Origin: Parvibaculaceae bacterium Mf 1.05b.01
GTDB taxonomy: Bacteria > Pseudomonadota > Alphaproteobacteria > Parvibaculales > Parvibaculaceae
Direction: 5' to 3'
NCBI GenBank assembly: GCA_000509225.1
Contig: BAOK01000001.1
Coordinates: forward strand, 1,426,001 to 1,490,000
Length of the DNA: 64,000 bases
Shown one piece after another: positions 30,771 through 50,286 of this stretch. The notes beneath the pieces are model-generated. The model did no database searches, was not told where the DNA came from, and saw only the letters and a program-made list of their open reading frames with translations. The translations under genes were made by a program, and so were the position numbers. Each line of letters begins with the position of its first letter. The first letter of the stretch is position 1.

Positions 30771-31148
30771 CTATTCGGGAGACCAGGCGTCATAATCACC
30801 GGTTACACGGGGACGACCACCTACGGTCGACAGGCTTCCGTCCGGCCGGTAAGCATGGGGCGTACCTGTGAGGTTTGGCTGGTGGGGCTTGTGCCACTCA
30901 CGAACCGCATACTGTTCCTCAGTGGGAATTGTATCGACGGTCTTGTGCATCCAGCCATGCCATTCAGGCGGGATACGTGATGCCTCAACCAGGCCGTTAT
31001 ATACGACCCAGCGTCGATCTTCCTTTGACCGGTAATATTTGTTTCCCTGCGCGTCTTCGCCCATCAACTCACCGTTGCGCCATGTGTGAAAACGCGTTGC
31101 CAGCGTTTGGCTATGCCACCATGTGAAGAACTGCGCCAGAAAGCTCAT
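30771..31148 (-). CDS. NDUFA12-type complex I accessory subunit
   Basis: 125 residues from ATG 31148. Contains the family pattern around GNKYYRSKEDRRWVVYNG, EASRIPPEWHGWMHKT and KPHQPNLTGTPHAYRPDGS. NDUFA12 (B17.2) is an accessory subunit of NADH:ubiquinone oxidoreductase, found in mitochondria and alphaproteobacteria only, which supports the host class. About 200 bases separate it from mlaD downstream. Confidence 0.95.
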   Translation of the reverse strand: MSFLAQFFTWWHSQTLATRFHTWRNGELMGEDAQGNKYYRSKEDRRWVVYNGLVEASRIPPEWHGWMHKTVDTIPTEEQYAVREWHKPHQPNLTGTPHAYRPDGSLSTVGGRPRVTGDYDAWSPE

Positions 31149-31259
31149 TGGAAGGCCCTGAATTCTACCTCGCACGCGGAGCGGGTACGAGATTCTTTGT
31201 GAGAAACGCGGCGAATATGGCATTCCGCAAGGGTTCCGTCCAGTCCTGAAGCAACCAGC

Positions 31260-31991
31260 TTAAGATGCTCGAGGCCACCAGATCCAGATACCTGAGAAGC
31301 TGAGAATAAGTAGTAATATTGCCGCGCCATCCATTATCCACCCTCCAACTTCTCCAAAAAAATTGCCGGAATGCAGGTCGAGGATAATTCGGTAGACAGG
31401 AAGTCCCTCACCCCGCAGGTGGCTATCCATCGCGGGAACCAAATCAGTCGGTATTGGTCTGTTCAGCGACCATGAAACTGTCGGACCTGCCGCTTCAACC
31501 TGCCGCCAGTTCGAGACTTCAGAATTTGAGGCATAGAATGTTTCGCCTGCCTTCACCATCAGGCGCTCGCCGGAGATGCCAATCGCCCCGATCTCCGCGC
31601 TAAATCCAACCGGCAAAAATCGCTCCACCAGCTCTCCTTCGCTGGTGAACAGCAGAAATTCCCGGGGCGTTGCAAGAACCATCAGCAGATCAAGTTTCAC
31701 CGCCCCCCTAAGTTCTGAGACGCCGCCGATGAGAGGTTTCTCATCCAGAAAAAGCCACCCCCCGGCCCAGCTGACGGTTGCCTCACCTGTGTCAAAGGCA
31801 CGTGCTGACTCATCAACACCCGCAATGCCGTACCAATTGAGAATCCAGGAGTTTTCAATTTTTGTGTTGTCCAGGTTTAACGCGCTTGCATGGTTTAACA
31901 ACAAACCTGTGACACTTAGAAGGAGCACAAAAACTGCCGCTGTCAGACCCAGACGGCGGTGCCAGATGCGAACCCATCGTGCCGTTACCAT
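31260..31991 (-). CDS. PepSY-type membrane protein
   Basis: 243 residues. N-terminal RWVRIWHRRLGLTAAV followed by a transmembrane helix (12-34), a periplasmic region of about 170 residues, then a C-terminal helix (215-240) ending in WIWWPRAS, the signature of PepSY_TM proteins that may bind haem or pass electrons across the inner membrane. The gene is 4 bases downstream of the FMN-binding gene. Together with the porin and ApbE it looks like a membrane redox module. Confidence 0.82.
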   Translation of the reverse strand: MVTARWVRIWHRRLGLTAAVFVLLLSVTGLLLNHASALNLDNTKIENSWILNWYGIAGVDESARAFDTGEATVSWAGGWLFLDEKPLIGGVSELRGAVKLDLLMVLATPREFLLFTSEGELVERFLPVGFSAEIGAIGISGERLMVKAGETFYASNSEVSNWRQVEAAGPTVSWSLNRPIPTDLVPAMDSHLRGEGLPVYRIILDLHSGNFFGEVGGWIMDGAAILLLILSFSGIWIWWPRAS

Positions 31992-31994
31992 GGG

Positions 31995-32525
31995 TCAGGA
32001 ATCCTCACGTGAAACGGCGTCGAGATGGAGGGCGAGACGCGCAAGTTTGATCAAGGCTCGCACCGACAATGTCGCTCCCGATATGCCATCAACGGGCCCC
32101 GAAAGCTGCTGGTCGTTGTCCAACCGCATGCCACGAAACTGGTCCGTGAAAAAAGGATATCGCACTTCCCAGCCGTGGCTTTCCCGGTAAACCAAAACCT
32201 GCACGCGCTCTATCTCGCCGCCCTTAACCGATATCCCTGTTGTAATCGGCTGAGTTTTTCCAATTTCCTCCAGGATCCAAACCGTGCGGTCCGCTGCCTG
32301 CCAATACCGCATGCGCAGGCCGCCAGGTTTGCGACCCAATATTTCTTGCATCTCGGCCTTTAAGTCGCCCTTCAGCCACAAAAATGACGGTGCTGGCGCC
32401 GCACCGTGGAATATCTCCGAGAGAAAAACATCCGGTTCCATGAAGATGTCGACGGCTCTAGCAAGCTGCGTCGACATTGCCAACATCAGAAATATGGCAA
32501 ATGGAGCTATGAGTATTCGTTTCAT
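31995..32525 (-). CDS. FMN-binding domain protein, probably flavinylated
   Basis: 176 residues from ATG 32525 (an adjacent ATG at 32528 is equally possible; AGGA upstream). Signal peptide ends near ARAVD. The C-terminal half is an FMN_bind domain with DGISGATLSVRAL, the S/D-G-A-T-x-S/T sequence whose last Ser/Thr accepts FMN from ApbE. A divergent apbE gene lies 1.4 kb away, so covalent flavinylation is likely. Central part resembles a variable substrate or docking region. Downstream overlapping operon with the PepSY protein. Confidence 0.87.
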   Translation of the reverse strand: MKRILIAPFAIFLMLAMSTQLARAVDIFMEPDVFLSEIFHGAAPAPSFLWLKGDLKAEMQEILGRKPGGLRMRYWQAADRTVWILEEIGKTQPITTGISVKGGEIERVQVLVYRESHGWEVRYPFFTDQFRGMRLDNDQQLSGPVDGISGATLSVRALIKLARLALHLDAVSREDS

Positions 32526-32602
32526 CATTCCTGCTTTTACCACAAGCGAACAGGGCGCCAACGGGAGCGCCCTGTCCTTTGCTGACTCCAATGAAGACGG
32601 CC

Positions 32603-33844
32603 TCAGAACTGGAAACCAACGCCGAGATTGACGCGGTTATCCTCTGTGCCACCAGTTGGTGCACTGTCGATCTGATAGTCCGCCTTTAAGACCGTGTCGG
32701 GGGTTGGCCAGAAGTTGGCCCCAAACCTGGTCTGGGAGAACTTGGAGTCAGTATTATCGCCAGCATTATTGTCCCACTCAGCGTACTGGACGAAGAAGCC
32801 CAGATCGCCAATGTCAGTGGAAAAACGATAAGACGGTTCGACATACCACCCAGACTGCTCATCACGACCCACTGCCGCAGCCGCATTGCTGTCCAGATCC
32901 CAGAACGCGGCAAGCGCGCGGAACCCAAGCTTGCCTGGTCCGACGGCCATTGACGCATCGATATGCGCTTCGAGCAGTGTCGCCGGGGTCTCCTCAGCCG
33001 TTCCTTGCGTGACATCGAATTGGTGCTGCGCGGTCACGCCGACTTCAACACCGGGCATGCCGGTCCATTGTACCCGACCGGTTACTGCGCCATCGGCAGC
33101 ACGTGCCTCGGCAACTTTCTGGCGACCATTGCGAATTTTGAAGGCATTCGCTCCGGTGGTCGGAACCTGCAGCCCGGAGTGGTACATCACATTGTAACCA
33201 AACTCGTTGCTCAATTGGCCGTGGGCGCCAATGCCAGCTTCCCACCATGTCGTCGGAATGATGTTCTTTTCGACTTCGTTCCGCTCAACGCCATAGAAAG
33301 TTGGCGGCTCATGGGTCTCATTGAGAATACCCACGGGGATCAACTGAACACCGGCGGTCAATGAGTGGAATTCAGCAATGTCGAACTCAAGGAAAGCCTG
33401 CTCAAGTTCCACCTCGCCGGGCTGTCCCTCTCCTGCGAGAGCATGCTCAAGTTCGAGTTCAGCAAACAGGCGGACATTGTCGGTAAATTCATGCGCGATA
33501 AAGAGCACGAAGCGATGGAAATCCACTTCGTCCTTGTCACCGCCATTGTAGTGAAGCTCGCCATACCCGCCGAGCGACGTCCTCTGCCACCAGCCAGGTT
33601 CAGACGAACCGCCGCCACTTGAGGCAATCTCTTCAACCACCTCACCGGTTGCTTCTACTTTCTCGTCAGTATCTTCAAGCTTGGATGTCAGTTGGTTGAT
33701 CTGGGCCTGCTGGGCCTGGATCATCTGCCACATCTCTTCGCGACTTGGCAGGTCTTCGGCAAACGCGGGCGCTGACATAAGCGCCACGCCCAGGCCAATT
33801 GCGCCTGTTTTGATAATTCTATTCATATGCATTTTCGATCCCAT
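32603..33844 (-). CDS. Outer-membrane beta-barrel porin
   Basis: 413 residues. Signal peptide to about PAFAED (residue 29), a short coiled-coil (30-65, MWQMIQAQQAQINQL), a Ser/Gly linker, then an amphipathic beta-barrel of the OprO/OprP or Gram-negative porin type ending in VGFQF with the terminal aromatic needed for BAM. AGAGG lies 7 bases before ATG 33844. First gene of the porin-FMN-binding-PepSY run; cargo may be a metal complex or anion, but this is not shown. Confidence 0.88.
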   Translation of the reverse strand: MGSKMHMNRIIKTGAIGLGVALMSAPAFAEDLPSREEMWQMIQAQQAQINQLTSKLEDTDEKVEATGEVVEEIASSGGGSSEPGWWQRTSLGGYGELHYNGGDKDEVDFHRFVLFIAHEFTDNVRLFAELELEHALAGEGQPGEVELEQAFLEFDIAEFHSLTAGVQLIPVGILNETHEPPTFYGVERNEVEKNIIPTTWWEAGIGAHGQLSNEFGYNVMYHSGLQVPTTGANAFKIRNGRQKVAEARAADGAVTGRVQWTGMPGVEVGVTAQHQFDVTQGTAEETPATLLEAHIDASMAVGPGKLGFRALAAFWDLDSNAAAAVGRDEQSGWYVEPSYRFSTDIGDLGFFVQYAEWDNNAGDNTDSKFSQTRFGANFWPTPDTVLKADYQIDSAPTGGTEDNRVNLGVGFQF

Positions 33845-33975
33845 TTTTTGCCTCTCCCCAATTTTCCTTATGATCAGAGGCTTTCAGCGCACCCTGATTA
33901 CGCTCTTGCGAGTCATTTTCAATGTCTTTTTTGATAGTGCTTCGCATTACTGAGATCGTGTGCTAATTCTGCACC

Positions 33976-34977
33976 ATGAAAAAACGTCAGCTGAATGAGA
34001 CGAATGACGAAGCACACGTACGATCTGGCGGCCTGTCGCGGCGGCGGTGCCTTGCCCTTTTTGGGTCAGCCGCAGCACTGCCGTTGACAGCACAAGCGGC
34101 GCCCTCCCCCTCTCAGACCTGGCATGGCACTGCGATGGGCGGCGATGTTTCCATTACGCTTGAAGGTTTCGGTGCTGCAAAAAGGGCAGAACTGACAAAC
34201 CTTGCCGTAACGGAACTCAATCGGCTGGAAGATGTCTTCAGCCTTTACCGCCCCGCATCTGCGCTATCTAGGCTCAATAGGAACGGCGTGTGCGCTGATG
34301 CGCCTGAGGAGCTGATGGAGGCTTTGAGCTTTAGCCGCGACCTGTACGAGAGATCCGGTGGCGCCTTCGATCCGTCTGTCCAAAGGTTGTGGGAGCATTA
34401 CGACGCCGGGAAATCAGACCTTAGGGCGGCACTGGCGCTGGTCGGTTTCGACAGAGTGAACATCTCAGCCAGCAAGATCATGCTGCCGACAGGCATGGCC
34501 CTTACCTTGAACGGGATTGCGCAAGGAATTGCGACGGACAGGGTTGCCGCCTTGTTGCGCAATGCTGGCGCCCGGCACACATTGATCAATCTCGGAGAGT
34601 TCAAGGCTCTCGGTCCAAAATCCGACGGCTCGGCGTGGCAGGTAGGACTGAGAGATCCAGGTGCCGTATGGCGCGTCAGCGATGTGGTTCAGCTTAGAGG
34701 TGATGCACTTGCCACCTCAGCAGGCTCTGGTCACAGGTTTCGGAACGGCCACCACCTTTTTGAGCCCGAGAGCGGTCAAAGTGCCAGGCATTTCAACTCT
34801 GTGAGCGTGGTGGCGCCCAACGCAACCCTGGCAGACGGCCTATCAACAGCCCTGTACGTACTGCCCCTGAACAAGGCGCAGCGGATGATCAGTCAGTACG
34901 AGAATGTCGCGGCTCGGTTTACCTGTGCAGATGGCGACATCGTTGCAACAGATAGGTGGAACGACCTGATCGCTTAA
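33976..34977 (+). CDS. apbE: FAD:protein FMN transferase (ApbE)
   Basis: 333 residues. A twin-arginine type signal (SRRRCLALFGSAAALP, cleavage near AQAAP). Catalytic domain: WHGTAMGGDVSITL, FSLYRPASALSRLN, GGAFDPSVQRLW, NGIAQGIATDRVAALL, INLGEFKALG, and the metal-binding ATLADGLSTAL. Transfers FMN from FAD to Thr/Ser of exported proteins. Divergent from the porin/FMN-binding/PepSY genes, its obvious client. Its stop codon (34975-34977) overlaps the antiparallel stop of the response regulator gene. Confidence 0.95.
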   Translation: MKKRQLNETNDEAHVRSGGLSRRRCLALFGSAAALPLTAQAAPSPSQTWHGTAMGGDVSITLEGFGAAKRAELTNLAVTELNRLEDVFSLYRPASALSRLNRNGVCADAPEELMEALSFSRDLYERSGGAFDPSVQRLWEHYDAGKSDLRAALALVGFDRVNISASKIMLPTGMALTLNGIAQGIATDRVAALLRNAGARHTLINLGEFKALGPKSDGSAWQVGLRDPGAVWRVSDVVQLRGDALATSAGSGHRFRNGHHLFEPESGQSARHFNSVSVVAPNATLADGLSTALYVLPLNKAQRMISQYENVAARFTCADGDIVATDRWNDLIA

Positions 34978-35522
34978 AGATCCAGGTCCCAGGCATCGCC
35001 TGCGGCCACTTTTTGCTCGGCCACTGCAACGGCTGCCTTTGGAAGCTTCAATGTCAGCTGCTGGCGCATCTGCCCCTCTTCTTCAAAGAAGGGCCGTTTG
35101 TCAGCGAGGATCCAGTCAACGCGGTGCAATAGGTTTGCCGGGGTCAATGGCTTGACGAGGAATTGACTGGCCCCGGCTTCAAATGCCTGTCGGATCAGTC
35201 TCGGACGGCCATGAGCCGTCAACATGATTACCGGAATGAAACAGGCTGGCTTGTTGTCTGCGCGTCGCAAAACCTCAAGAAAGGAACAGCCGTCCATCGG
35301 CTTCATTTCCCAGTCGCTGATGATGAGGTCCGGCTGACGGATCTTAATTTCCGCCAAGGCCTCGGTGCCATCTGTTGCTTCGCGGATATTTTTGACGTCA
35401 AACGCCTCCAGGATTGTGTGGACAAGTCGGCGCATGTGGAAATTGTCATCCACCACCAATACATTGAGCGCACTGAGTTCGCGCCCGTAAGCGTTGCTGT
35501 GCTTTGCCGCGATGGTTTGCAT
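34974..35522 (-). CDS. Single-domain response regulator
   Basis: 182 residues from ATG 35522. One receiver domain: acidic pair D25/D26 (VLVVDDNFHM), phospho-acceptor D70 (LIISDWEMKPMDG), MLTAHG and the conserved lysine in FLVKPL. The C-terminal 60 residues carry no DNA-binding domain and look like an extension rather than an output. No histidine kinase is nearby. Such receivers in alphaproteobacteria often act by protein contact in chemotaxis or stress pathways. Ribosome site is weak; a TTG six bases upstream is possible. Confidence 0.87.
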   Translation of the reverse strand: MQTIAAKHSNAYGRELSALNVLVVDDNFHMRRLVHTILEAFDVKNIREATDGTEALAEIKIRQPDLIISDWEMKPMDGCSFLEVLRRADNKPACFIPVIMLTAHGRPRLIRQAFEAGASQFLVKPLTPANLLHRVDWILADKRPFFEEEGQMRQQLTLKLPKAAVAVAEQKVAAGDAWDLDL

Positions 35523-36025
35523 GTCCAAAATAACCCCATGTCTCCTGCAGGTGATCTTTCGCCGGGCGTTTACCAAGAAGACCAAGCATTCCTGCCCATT
35601 TCTTTTACGGGTTAAACCCTTCTGATTAGTAACCGCGGCGCGCAGAAAGCGTCGATTCGCGAATCTTTCCGCAGAGATATTCCTCGCCGACCACCTTCAC
35701 CCCACATATTTTGAGGCCCGTACGCCATTCGACACAAGTGCTTGACGACCCCCGCCCATACCACCACAGTTTGTGTCGGCTCAGATGAAAGACACTGCAT
35801 CTGGTACCAACCGGACATAAGGTGGCGATCAGGTTCCGCCCGTCCCTTGAACAGCTGACATGGGAATTTCCCCATTGATTCAGTGGGTTAAGGACACGGG
35901 ACCGCAGGAAAGCTGCCTCTCATGCTCCTCTCGGAACCAGCTTGTCGCCGTCTGATCCAAGGGTTGAGAGATTGGGGTCTCGTCGGCGGCGATGGGTCCC
36001 TTTGCAAGAGGAATATGGGGGCCAA
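35523..36025. other. Gap upstream of nrdJ
   Basis: About 500 bases without a convincing gene. I looked for a cobalamin riboswitch and NrdR boxes and found neither. A possible -35 TTGACG occurs near 35750 but lacks a good -10. GGGGG 5 bases before 36026 serves nrdJ. Confidence 0.4.
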
Positions 36026-48222: not shown

Positions 48223-50286
48223 ATGTTGGGTAGGATTTTCAATGCCAATATCGGCAAACGGATTTTTGTTGCAGCAGTGGTGCCAATTATCGGCATCGCC
48301 TTGTTTGCTGCCTATATCATCAGTGGCGAAGTCCAGCGCTATGCATCGCTGAACCATCTCCATACATTGGCAACCATCTCTCCCAAAATCAGTTCGGTGG
48401 TAAATGAACTGCAGGGAGAACGTGGAACTTCAGCGACCTACATCTCCTCTGGAGGCAATGGCGCATGGACCAGCCGCCTTGACCAGCAGTTCGCTTCTAC
48501 CGATGCCGTACTGACAGAAATTCTTCCTTTTTTGCAGGCGTTCCCGGCCGCCAGTTATGGCGTGCAGGTTGAAGAACGCCTGACGCTTGCCTTGGCTGAG
48601 CTCGAACGGTTAGAGGGGTTTCGCGAGCGCACACGATCAGCGCGCACGACCATCGAGGCAACTTCAGAATATTACACACAGACCATTCGTCAGTTGCTCG
48701 ATATTGTGTCCGTCGTTGCCTCTCTTGCAGATGATGCAGAAATCAAAGGTCAGAGCATTGCCTATATGAGTCTTCTTGAGATCAAGGAACGCGCTGGGTT
48801 GGAACGGGGTATGGGCGCCAAAGGGTATGGCGCAAAGGCATTTGATTCCCTCACACACACAGAGTTTGTGACCCTCATTGGCCAGCAAGATTCCTATATG
48901 GAGGTTTTTCGTGCCTATGCCTCGCCGGAAGCTGTCGCTTTTTATGACGAAACGGTCGTGGGCACGCAAGTTGATGACGTCGAGTATTGGCGCGATATCG
49001 CGGTCGAAGCGGGCTACGACATGCTCTACGACGACATCACAGACATCCAGTGGTATGATGGGATCTCGATGAAAATCGACCTCATTACCCAAGTCGAAGA
49101 TTTTGCGTCCCAAGAGATGATCGCCACAGCAGATGGCGCGCTCAGCTCTGCCTGGATGGCTCTTCTTGTTACGCTGGCGAGCTCCATTGGATCTCTCGCC
49201 GTTGCGGGCGCTGCTTGTTATGTCGTCGGCCGCTCAATCACCAAACCGCTTGCCAGCTTGCAGGATGTTATGGGTGAAGTGGCAGATGGCGCATTTGATG
49301 TTCAAATTTCTGGTGCTGACCGTCGCGATGAGATCGGAGACATGGCACGCGCTGTTGAAGTCTTCCGTGATCAGGGTGCAGCCGCTGAGCGACTAAAAGA
49401 AGAGCAGGAGCTTGCCGAAAAACGGGCAGCAGAAGAGAAGCACGAAAGCCTCAACAAGATGGCCGACGATCTTGAATCTTCGATCGGCCAGATGATTGAT
49501 GGTCTCACCGCGTCTTCAACGGAACTGGAAACCACAGCTCGCTCCATGAGCGAGTTGGCGGGTACTACGAATGAAGAGGCGATTTCTGTGAGCAATGCCA
49601 GCACCGGGGCAACACAGAATGTCGAAACCGTCGCCTCTGCTGCAACGCAATTGTCCAATGCCATTGGCGAGGTGACAGAGCAAATCTCCCTGTCAGCTGC
49701 TTTGACGCAGGAATCGCGCGAGGCCTCTGAACAGACAGATGTACAGATGAAGAACCTGTCTGAAGCAGCAAACCGGATTGGCTCAGTGATGGAACTGATC
49801 CAGGAAATCGCAGAGCAGACCAACTTGCTTGCACTCAACGCCACTATTGAGGCCGCCCGTGCGGGTGACGCTGGTAAAGGCTTTGCCGTCGTTGCATCAG
49901 AGGTCAAAGACCTCGCCAATCAGACTGCCAAAGCAACCGGCGAAATTTCAGATCATGTCAACCGTGTTCAGGAAGAAACCAAAACTGCCGCTGAAGCCAT
50001 GACCGGCATCGCCAACAAGATCGGCGAAATCAATCAGGTCACCTCCGCTGTATCTGCAGCGGTTGAGGAACAGAGCTCAGCCACGCAGGAAATCTCGCGC
50101 AGCGCAGAAGAAACAGCTGAGATGAACCGGAACGTCTCTTCAAGTGTGGACACTGTTCGTACCGCAGCTGAACAAACCGGGACAGCAGCTGATCAGGTAT
50201 TGAGTTCTGCAGAGGAACTTTCCAAGACAGCTGAAGGCTTGCGCAAACAAGTTGGCGACTTTGTTTCGTCAATCCGCGCAGCCTAA
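48223..50286 (+). CDS. Methyl-accepting chemotaxis protein with NIT sensor domain
   Basis: 687 residues. First transmembrane helix 13-33; periplasmic domain with [17 protein letters not shown] and [11 protein letters not shown], the marks of the nitrate/nitrite-sensing NIT fold; second transmembrane helix about 307-330; HAMP 330-385; coiled-coil signalling domain with the hairpin tip [21 protein letters not shown] near 525-545. Senses an inorganic anion or related ligand and drives CheA through CheW. No che genes are nearby. Ends 26 bases before a strong terminator. Confidence 0.93.

Follow-up and report, generated by a model that had tools for sequence, protein, structure and literature searches.

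The closest described relatives of the genes considered here are the PepSY-like flavinylation clusters. Meheust et al. 2021 found 3220 of these clusters, 2833 of them with DUF2271 and often with DUF4198, and argued for a role in iron reduction (PMC8238504). In Caulobacter, the genes CCNA_03155-03159, which encode PepSY (COG3295), DUF2271, and DUF4198 proteins and a flavin-dependent reductase, are a Fur target; insertions in these genes reduce fitness in ethylenediaminetetraacetic acid (EDTA), and periplasmic reduction of Fe(III) has been proposed (PMC12004947). COG3295 also contains VciB from V. cholerae (PMC12004947). FoxB is described as a reductase of ferrisiderophores, and the use of ferrioxamines and ferrichrome depends on HiuB (PMC13001220, PMC13038864). 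FoxB has two hemes, with paired histidines on each face (PMC13038864). Here, we describe a related locus from the alphaproteobacterium Parvibaculaceae bacterium Mf 1.05b.01. We analyzed 64,000 nucleotides of its genome (positions 1,426,001 to 1,490,000 of contig BAOK01000001.1; hereafter, the window), which include adjacent genes for a predicted outer-membrane porin, an FMN_bind protein, and a PepSY_TM-type membrane protein (PEP), as well as a divergent apbE. We propose that these genes likely encode a Fur-controlled periplasmic ferric reductase for iron assimilation, with its own outer-membrane porin. The features of the locus are:

32603–33844, minus strand: porin (POR), 413 amino acids; unmatched by Pfam, a barrel in the AlphaFold2 model
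31995–32525, minus strand: FMN_bind protein (FMN), 176 amino acids; Pfam FMN_bind, with the motif DGISGATLS
31260–31991, minus strand: PepSY_TM-type membrane protein (PEP), 243 amino acids; Pfam PepSY_TM
33976–34977, plus strand: ApbE, FAD:protein FMN transferase; full-length Pfam ApbE, with a signal like those for twin-arginine translocation (Tat)
33905–33923, no strand: Fur-box-like site CTTGCGAGTCATTTTCAAT, 10.1 bits with the trained motif; includes TGCGAGTCATTTTCA, which the initial annotation had singled out
33930–33948, no strand (AATGCGAAGCACTATCAAA on the minus strand): second Fur-box-like site, 8.6 bits with the trained motif

The four genes were found, as open reading frames and with Pfam, where the initial annotation had placed them. 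On the minus strand, the order is porin, FMN, PEP (31260–33844), with 3 base pairs between the FMN and PEP genes; a gap of 131 base pairs separates the porin gene from apbE. The genome (3.82 Mb in 2 contigs, listed as 100% complete) has a single match each for ApbE, FMN_bind, and PepSY_TM, and all three are at this locus.

The porin, FMN, and PEP genes form one conserved unit. Among 385 drawn alphaproteobacterial genomes, 15, including the host, have a strong relative of the FMN protein (at least 39% identity), and a porin profile matches exactly the same 15 genomes. (In one of these, G162, the match is just a porin fragment at the edge of a contig, interrupted by an internal stop.) Weak relatives of the FMN protein (24–28% identity) are found in 4 genomes. 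The FMN gene is present in 4 of 7 genomes from the window's genus, and searches of another genome from this genus (G008) found neither the FMN gene, nor the porin, nor ApbE.

For gene order, we considered 96 distinct loci: 19 from genomes and 77 from named contigs of Alpha-, Beta-, and Gammaproteobacteria and Verrucomicrobia. The contig loci are from the best 80 of 271, selected for their similarity to the FMN alignment, which makes them a poor guide to rarer arrangements; 77 of the 80 contigs are labelled as metagenome-assembled genomes. We left out L052, L085, and L123, which are on the same contigs as L034, L040, and L038, and also L048–L051, which contain another module (see below). For L109, in which the stop-to-stop frames of FMN and PEP overlap, we entered "PEP present" by hand. 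The porin gene is directly upstream of the FMN gene in 89 of the 96 loci, and the remaining 7 are cut off by contig ends, so the porin is a conserved part of the unit and not a chance neighbor. PEP is directly downstream of FMN in 92 loci, and 2 more are cut by contig ends. Two culturable bacteria, Pelagicoccus mobilis KCTC 13126 (L084) and Sinimarinibacterium sp. CAU 1509 (L107), are among those with all three genes.

A few loci look unusual. In L038 (7827–9222), the porin is split across two frames, and L146 has, at the edge of a contig, a porin fragment that an internal stop interrupts; these could be decaying copies or assembly errors. In L075, all three genes are on a contig that is labelled as a Halobacteria archaeon, with a neighboring gene that clusters with gammaproteobacterial loci; this contig is probably mis-binned.

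ApbE belongs with these genes as well. It is found in 102 of the 385 alphaproteobacterial genomes, including all 4 with weak relatives of the FMN protein and all 15 carriers, as compared to 87 of the 370 others (P = 1e-9, Fisher's exact test, ignoring relatedness). In 19 of the 96 loci (16 alphaproteobacterial, by label or draw, and 3 from Verrucomicrobia), apbE is no more than 6 kb away. ApbE also matched in 26 of 26 genomes that we searched individually, 25 of which were picked for apbE-free surroundings, out of 77 such loci; the match in G421 is a fragment at a contig end. In a control panel, 7 of 14 genomes had a match. These comparisons support the initial annotation's reading of the porin, FMN, PEP, and apbE genes as one module.

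Genes for iron assimilation recur beside the module. We clustered the neighboring genes without regard to function and then named the cluster representatives by Pfam. FeoB is near L062, L095, L101, and L118. The iron permease FTR1 is near L041 and L046, and, by similarity, near L043; a cupredoxin gene adjoins FTR1 at L041, and L043 and L046 have genes of the same cluster. An imelysin gene is near L047. Bacterioferritin is near L094 (by Pfam, and above the cut-off of the NCBIfam equivalog), and similar genes are near 10 more loci. At L076, L087, L089, L096, and L127, the gene for the binding protein of an ATP-binding cassette (ABC) transporter follows the porin, FMN, and PEP genes on the same strand. 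The PDB matches of the L087 protein are solved chains labelled as iron-binding or FbpA, some of which we take to be FutA; the other four were assigned by their 60–70% similarity to it. (We also considered that these binding proteins might act on phosphonate or thiamine, as NCBIfam hinted. However, those scores were below the cut-offs, and the PDB matches of the L087 protein are to iron-binding/FbpA chains instead.) Upstream of the porin in L065, L073, L076, L087, L089, and L096, there is a gene on the opposite strand for a protein of about 190–240 amino acids that we presume is LemA-like, given its first residues.

Overall, a gene for FeoB, FTR1, FbpA/FutA, FbpB, bacterioferritin, or imelysin lies within 5 kb in 21 of the 96 loci and beyond 5 kb in 1. 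This contrast is significant (P = 1e-5, sign test), yet the loci represent about 11 separate contexts, the sequence at hand is larger on the near side (807 kb near, including the module, versus 569 kb far), and the cluster representatives are mostly from the near side. FecCD permeases were searched for as well, and were left uncounted because their substrate is open. As a partner for the module, FecCD was set aside as chromosomal context that is common to related gammaproteobacterial genomes. Neighbors that we take, from their sequence starts, to be PtsP, ArgC, HemJ, ErpA, RppH, SerB, and TlpA were set aside as gammaproteobacterial context in the same way.

In the host itself, genome searches found no match to FTR1 and no match as strong as a true FeoB. 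The 8 matches to FeoB_N score at most 55.5 bits, and we judge that these are other GTPases because the four FeoB proteins that we scanned score 178–211 bits. The host does have a homolog of FbpA/FutA (43% identity, E = 1.8e-89), which is not linked to the locus.

The upstream regions of the porin genes contain a shared motif. We used expectation-maximization on 62 porin upstream regions from other loci (mostly gammaproteobacterial, by label), with the porins' start codons chosen by a signal-peptide heuristic. The learned motif is the palindrome AATGAGAATCATTCTCATT, which we take to resemble a Fur box. The controls were 820 regions that lie upstream of other genes from those loci. Among 26 held-out alphaproteobacterial regions, which include the window and are partly related to one another, 25 scored above the 95% point of the controls and 18 scored above the 99% point, with the motif unchanged. 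(In the training regions, 56 of 62 are above the 95% point, but this is no test, as the motif was learned from them.) The sites at 33905–33923 and 33930–33948 are the third and fourth best in the entire 64-kb window; higher scores were found only at 49068–49086 (11.2 bits, the best) and at 33815, within the first codons of the porin. Most of the second site is preserved in L029 and L030, which are the nearest relatives. The initial annotation had described the Fur-type resemblance as weak; given the ranking of these sites and the recurring iron genes, the link to iron is stronger than it had suggested. An initial test, which compared a 19-base consensus to shuffled sequences, gave at least 14/19 matches in 30 of 88 regions and P ≤ 0.05 in 42 of 88; the window had 13/19 matches (P = 0.05), at a place that overlaps the second site. 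We replaced this test with the trained motif and with real upstream regions as the control.

We also scored other parts of the host genome. Just ahead of the start of the unlinked FbpA-like gene is a site of 8.9 bits, which is the best in its 4-kb stretch. The host has 3 matches to the Fur family. Around one of these genes, the best site scores 13.5 bits and is more than 1 kb away; around another, it scores 10.8 bits and is some 100 bp ahead of the gene; and around the third, it reaches just 4.1 bits. The 10.8-bit site (L149, around position 1387) could reflect autoregulation. The porin-FMN-PEP operon and apbE are probably under Fur-like control.

The FMN protein has a signal peptide, lacks cysteine, and matches Pfam's FMN_bind above the cut-off (E = 2.1e-7). 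Its domain and motif are as initially annotated; its start is most likely the ATG at 32525 rather than the TTG at 32591, where the listed open reading frame begins. In the motif DGISGATLS, every residue but the first S is the same in 20 of 20 aligned relatives; that S is replaced by A in 2 of the 20. This is the longest nearly invariant stretch in the alignment. The protein thus fits the class with FMN_bind and an (S/T)GAT motif, and by analogy to that family it would carry a covalent flavin. A search of the PDB with the FMN profile found no meaningful relative. We considered membership in Rnf or Nqr and rejected it: the protein is the only FMN_bind match in the genome, and it scores just 17.8–21.4 bits against NCBIfam's rnfG models, whose cut-offs are 102–230 bits. 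ApbE matches its Pfam family over the curated cut-off (199 bits, E = 1.1e-58) and across profile positions 1–265 of 266. It contains a twin-arginine stretch (SRRRCLALF), which we presume to be of the Tat type, so ApbE is probably exported.

PEP matches PepSY_TM (E = 2.6e-12) and PepSY_TM_like_2, both above their cut-offs, and all 56 aligned PEP proteins match models of both types (PF03929 and PF16357; E ≤ 0.001). It lacks cysteine, and it has two transmembrane helices according to both hydropathy and AlphaFold2. In the AlphaFold2 model (pLDDT, the predicted local distance difference test, is 94.9), two long helices flank a 12-stranded insertion, and this insertion (residues 58–179) aligns to beta-propellers with Z up to 10.7. 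So, of the initial annotation's "PepSY protein," the PepSY_TM match holds, and instead of a PepSY domain the model has a propeller-like insertion between two helices. Among the aligned proteins, conservation of H11, H34, and H207 is 90% or higher. A natural minimal PEP of 118 amino acids (L046, 6951–7307) has two transmembrane helices and all three of these histidines, without the propeller-like insertion.

When we compared a profile of PEP to solved chains, the sole match at E ≤ 0.1 was FoxB (7abw, E = 5.6e-6). The score comes from the last helix, and the match to the first helix is weak. Foldseek with the PEP model found nothing at E ≤ 0.001, and FoxB was absent from the matches shown; this says little about the helices because the propeller-like part fills the lists. 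By analogy to FoxB, PEP is probably a b-type cytochrome that forms a homodimer and so mimics the four helices of FoxB. We suggest a homodimer because PEP has one histidine at the cytoplasmic end, while FoxB has paired histidines on each face.

The window's porin had no Pfam match at E ≤ 0.1, although 42 of 54 aligned porins from its family match Porin_O_P (PF07396), to which it is probably a distant relative. The protein lacks cysteine; a signal peptide is followed by a short helix that resembles a coiled coil (residues 35–59) and then by a predicted barrel. The AlphaFold2 model has 16 barrel strands, with pLDDT above 90 across most of the barrel, and the closest folds are porins of the OmpT, OmpC, OmpU, and DcaP types (TM-scores of about 0.5–0.67). 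A search of the PDB with the porin profile found no meaningful relative. We used hydrophobic alternation to assign each position to the lumen or the lipid side; strands 4 and 11 were ambiguous. On the lumen side, 33 of 91 positions are at least 90% conserved, and 12 of these are D, E, or H, as compared to 12 of 94 on the lipid side, with 2 that are D, E, or H. In strands 1–3, the conserved lumen residues include E96, H98, D108, H110, E129, E131, and E133. This pattern looks like a selective, cation-friendly lumen, as a candidate reading of the residues.

We propose the following mechanism. When iron is low, Fur would release the divergent apbE as well as the porin, FMN, and PEP genes. Once exported by Tat, ApbE would flavinylate the FMN protein, with FMN attached at the threonine of its DGISGAT motif. 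PEP would form a dimer in which H11 of each protomer binds the cytoplasm-side heme, and H34 and H207 bind the periplasm-side heme. PEP would take electrons from the membrane's quinol pool and hand them to the flavoprotein, which would reduce free or weakly chelated Fe(III) that is admitted by the porin. The Fe(II) could then pass to the importer that is present in the inner membrane of a given species, whether FeoB, FTR1, or an Fbp/Fut ABC transporter.

Our proposal might be extended to a TonB-independent iron trap, although we consider this doubtful. In the textbook account, TonB-dependent receptors are responsible for high-affinity iron uptake across the outer membrane. In the trap, Fe(III) that diffuses through the dedicated porin would be reduced at once and could not return, so that reduction rather than TonB would power the passage of iron across the outer membrane. 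The porin, with its acidic and histidine-lined lumen, might dock the flavoprotein at its periplasmic mouth through the N-terminal helix, and a dimeric two-helix cytochrome, with two half-propellers joined, might supply the electrons.

Several observations count against an iron-assimilatory ferric reductase. A counted iron gene is nearby in only 21 of the 96 loci, from about 11 contexts. FecCD permeases are found in 14 of the 96 loci (3–9 kb away), beyond 5 kb in 13 of the 14; if FecCD is included, then the tally is 22 near versus 14 far, so the contrast between near and far depends on this choice, which slightly lowers our confidence. Neither of the two annotated genes that flank the module in the window (NDUFA12 and a response regulator) is an iron gene. 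FbpA and FutA are usually regarded as binding ferric iron, so their pairing with a reductase is not self-evident. The window's sites are modest: 2.2% of the control regions reach 10.1 bits, so these sites would be weak on their own, and two other stretches of the host genome (about 3.4 kb) reach 13.5 and 10.8 bits. As for conservation, L112 and L119 lack a PEP gene despite having room for it (2 true absences among the 96 loci), and H34 is missing from the PEP of L047. Finally, the gene content, conservation, co-occurrence with ApbE, iron-related neighbors, and Fur-like sites are observations, while the loading of heme and flavin, the electron donor, the direction of electron flow, and the substrate are reasoned by analogy to ApbE, FMN_bind, and FoxB-type PepSY_TM proteins.

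We also considered that the module might reduce ferric siderophores, in the manner of FoxB and HiuB. A TonB-dependent receptor encoded elsewhere would import the chelate, the module would strip the iron from it in the periplasm, and the porin would be an exit for the chelator or a side player. At the threshold we used, no solved chain but FoxB is related to PEP; FoxB is described as a reductase of ferrisiderophores, and HiuB is required for their use (PMC13001220, PMC13038864). FecCD-type permeases are also present 3–9 kb away in 14 of the 96 loci. However, the conserved unit does not include a TonB-dependent receptor, its constant outer-membrane partner is a porin (89/96 loci), and where FecCD is beyond 5 kb (13 of 14 loci), it is mostly behind other genes. 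We think this explanation is improbable.

Alternatively, the module could reduce another metal or maintain the redox state of the envelope (copper, or the repair of methionine or thiols), and be only indirectly regulated by iron. CrpH, a relative with PepSY_TM, serves a copper oxidase function (PMC13038864), and a cupredoxin gene occurs at L041, with genes of the same cluster at L043 and L046. But the cupredoxin is paired with an iron permease, and iron genes from several families recur, as do the Fur-like sites, which makes this very unlikely. Barrels that hold cytochromes and conduct electrons across the outer membrane are an established principle. We give hardly any credence to such a conduit here, in which the porin and flavoprotein would pass electrons to extracellular acceptors (for dissimilatory or other extracellular electron transfer, as the initial annotation had entertained): although the barrel gene is genetically tied to that of a predicted periplasmic flavoprotein, the FMN protein, PEP, and the porin lack cysteine and hence any CxxCH heme motif, the barrel has an ordinary 16 strands, and Fur-like control along with neighboring genes for FeoB, FTR1, Fbp, and bacterioferritin favors assimilation.

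The four weak matches to the FMN protein belong to a separate cluster, L048–L051 (for instance, L050:5990–8842 and L051:5979–8774; the latter is from the window's own family). These loci encode DUF6662, a distant FMN_bind protein, ApbE, and a membrane protein of about 150 amino acids with, by eye, several histidines; in L050, this small protein weakly matches cytochrome b561. DUF6662 may be a barrel; the DUF6662 protein of L048 alone has a weak match to autotransporters. The regions upstream of DUF6662 contain Fur-like sites of 25.4, 15.3, 14.1, and 13.4 bits, in regions of 300 bases, which are longer than the controls. The presumed barrel is unrelated to the porin, which, as part of the doubtful iron-trap reading, would suggest that the coupling of a barrel to a flavoprotein arose more than once.

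In the window, a Pfam scan showed that the NDUFA12 gene (30771–31223) is on the same strand as PEP and 36 bp past it. NDUFA12 still adjoins PEP in three loci from the same genus (L029–L031), and read-through is possible.

If the ferric reductase reading is correct, then the module would explain, in a way that experiments can test, the use of poorly chelated Fe(III) by such cells, and it would provide a function for a group of porins that Pfam covers only in part. The genetic link that joins a porin to a presumed flavoprotein and a minimal presumed heme protein recurs in Verrucomicrobia as well as in Alpha-, Beta-, and Gammaproteobacteria. In the open-access literature that we searched, we found no published description of a porin and a two-helix, propeller-bearing PEP paired with an FMN_bind protein, and these features appear to be new relative to the known flavinylation clusters.

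The module falls within the definition of PepSY-like flavinylation clusters that is given by Meheust et al. 2021 (PMC8238504). As in those clusters, which have links to Fur and for which a role in iron assimilation was proposed, a PepSY_TM-type protein is beside ApbE and a protein to be flavinylated. In those clusters, the substrate is usually DUF2271, while here it is an FMN_bind protein, with a conserved porin; the main text of that paper does not contain the word porin (PMC8238504). Neither DUF2271 nor DUF4198, which are common companions in such clusters without being required, was found among the six window proteins that we scanned (30771–35585; the scan covered those proteins). The Caulobacter cluster CCNA_03155-03159 relies on another flavin carrier, and the account of it in PMC12004947 describes neither an FMN_bind protein nor a porin. 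Subunits G/C of Rnf/Nqr share the FMN_bind domain and the flavinylation motif, with only a weak match from the window's protein to rnfG. The Mtr and Pio conduits place a multiheme c-type cytochrome in a barrel, while the FMN protein, PEP, and porin of our locus are cysteine-free. The porin resembles the OprP/OprO type in its 16-stranded barrel and in the matches of its family to Porin_O_P; it differs in having no Pfam match itself, a helix ahead of the barrel, and a gene that is tied to that of a flavoprotein. Like FoxB (from Pseudomonas aeruginosa) and HiuB (from Caulobacter), PEP has PepSY_TM helices with conserved histidines on both faces of the membrane, and H11, H34, and H207 are in helices that can be aligned with FoxB. 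Unlike proteins of the FoxB type, which have at least four transmembrane helices and PepSY alpha/beta domains in the periplasm, PEP has two helices and a propeller-like insertion, and the second ligand on the cytoplasmic side would require a dimer. PEP is a two-helix counterpart of FoxB that is small enough for structural work.

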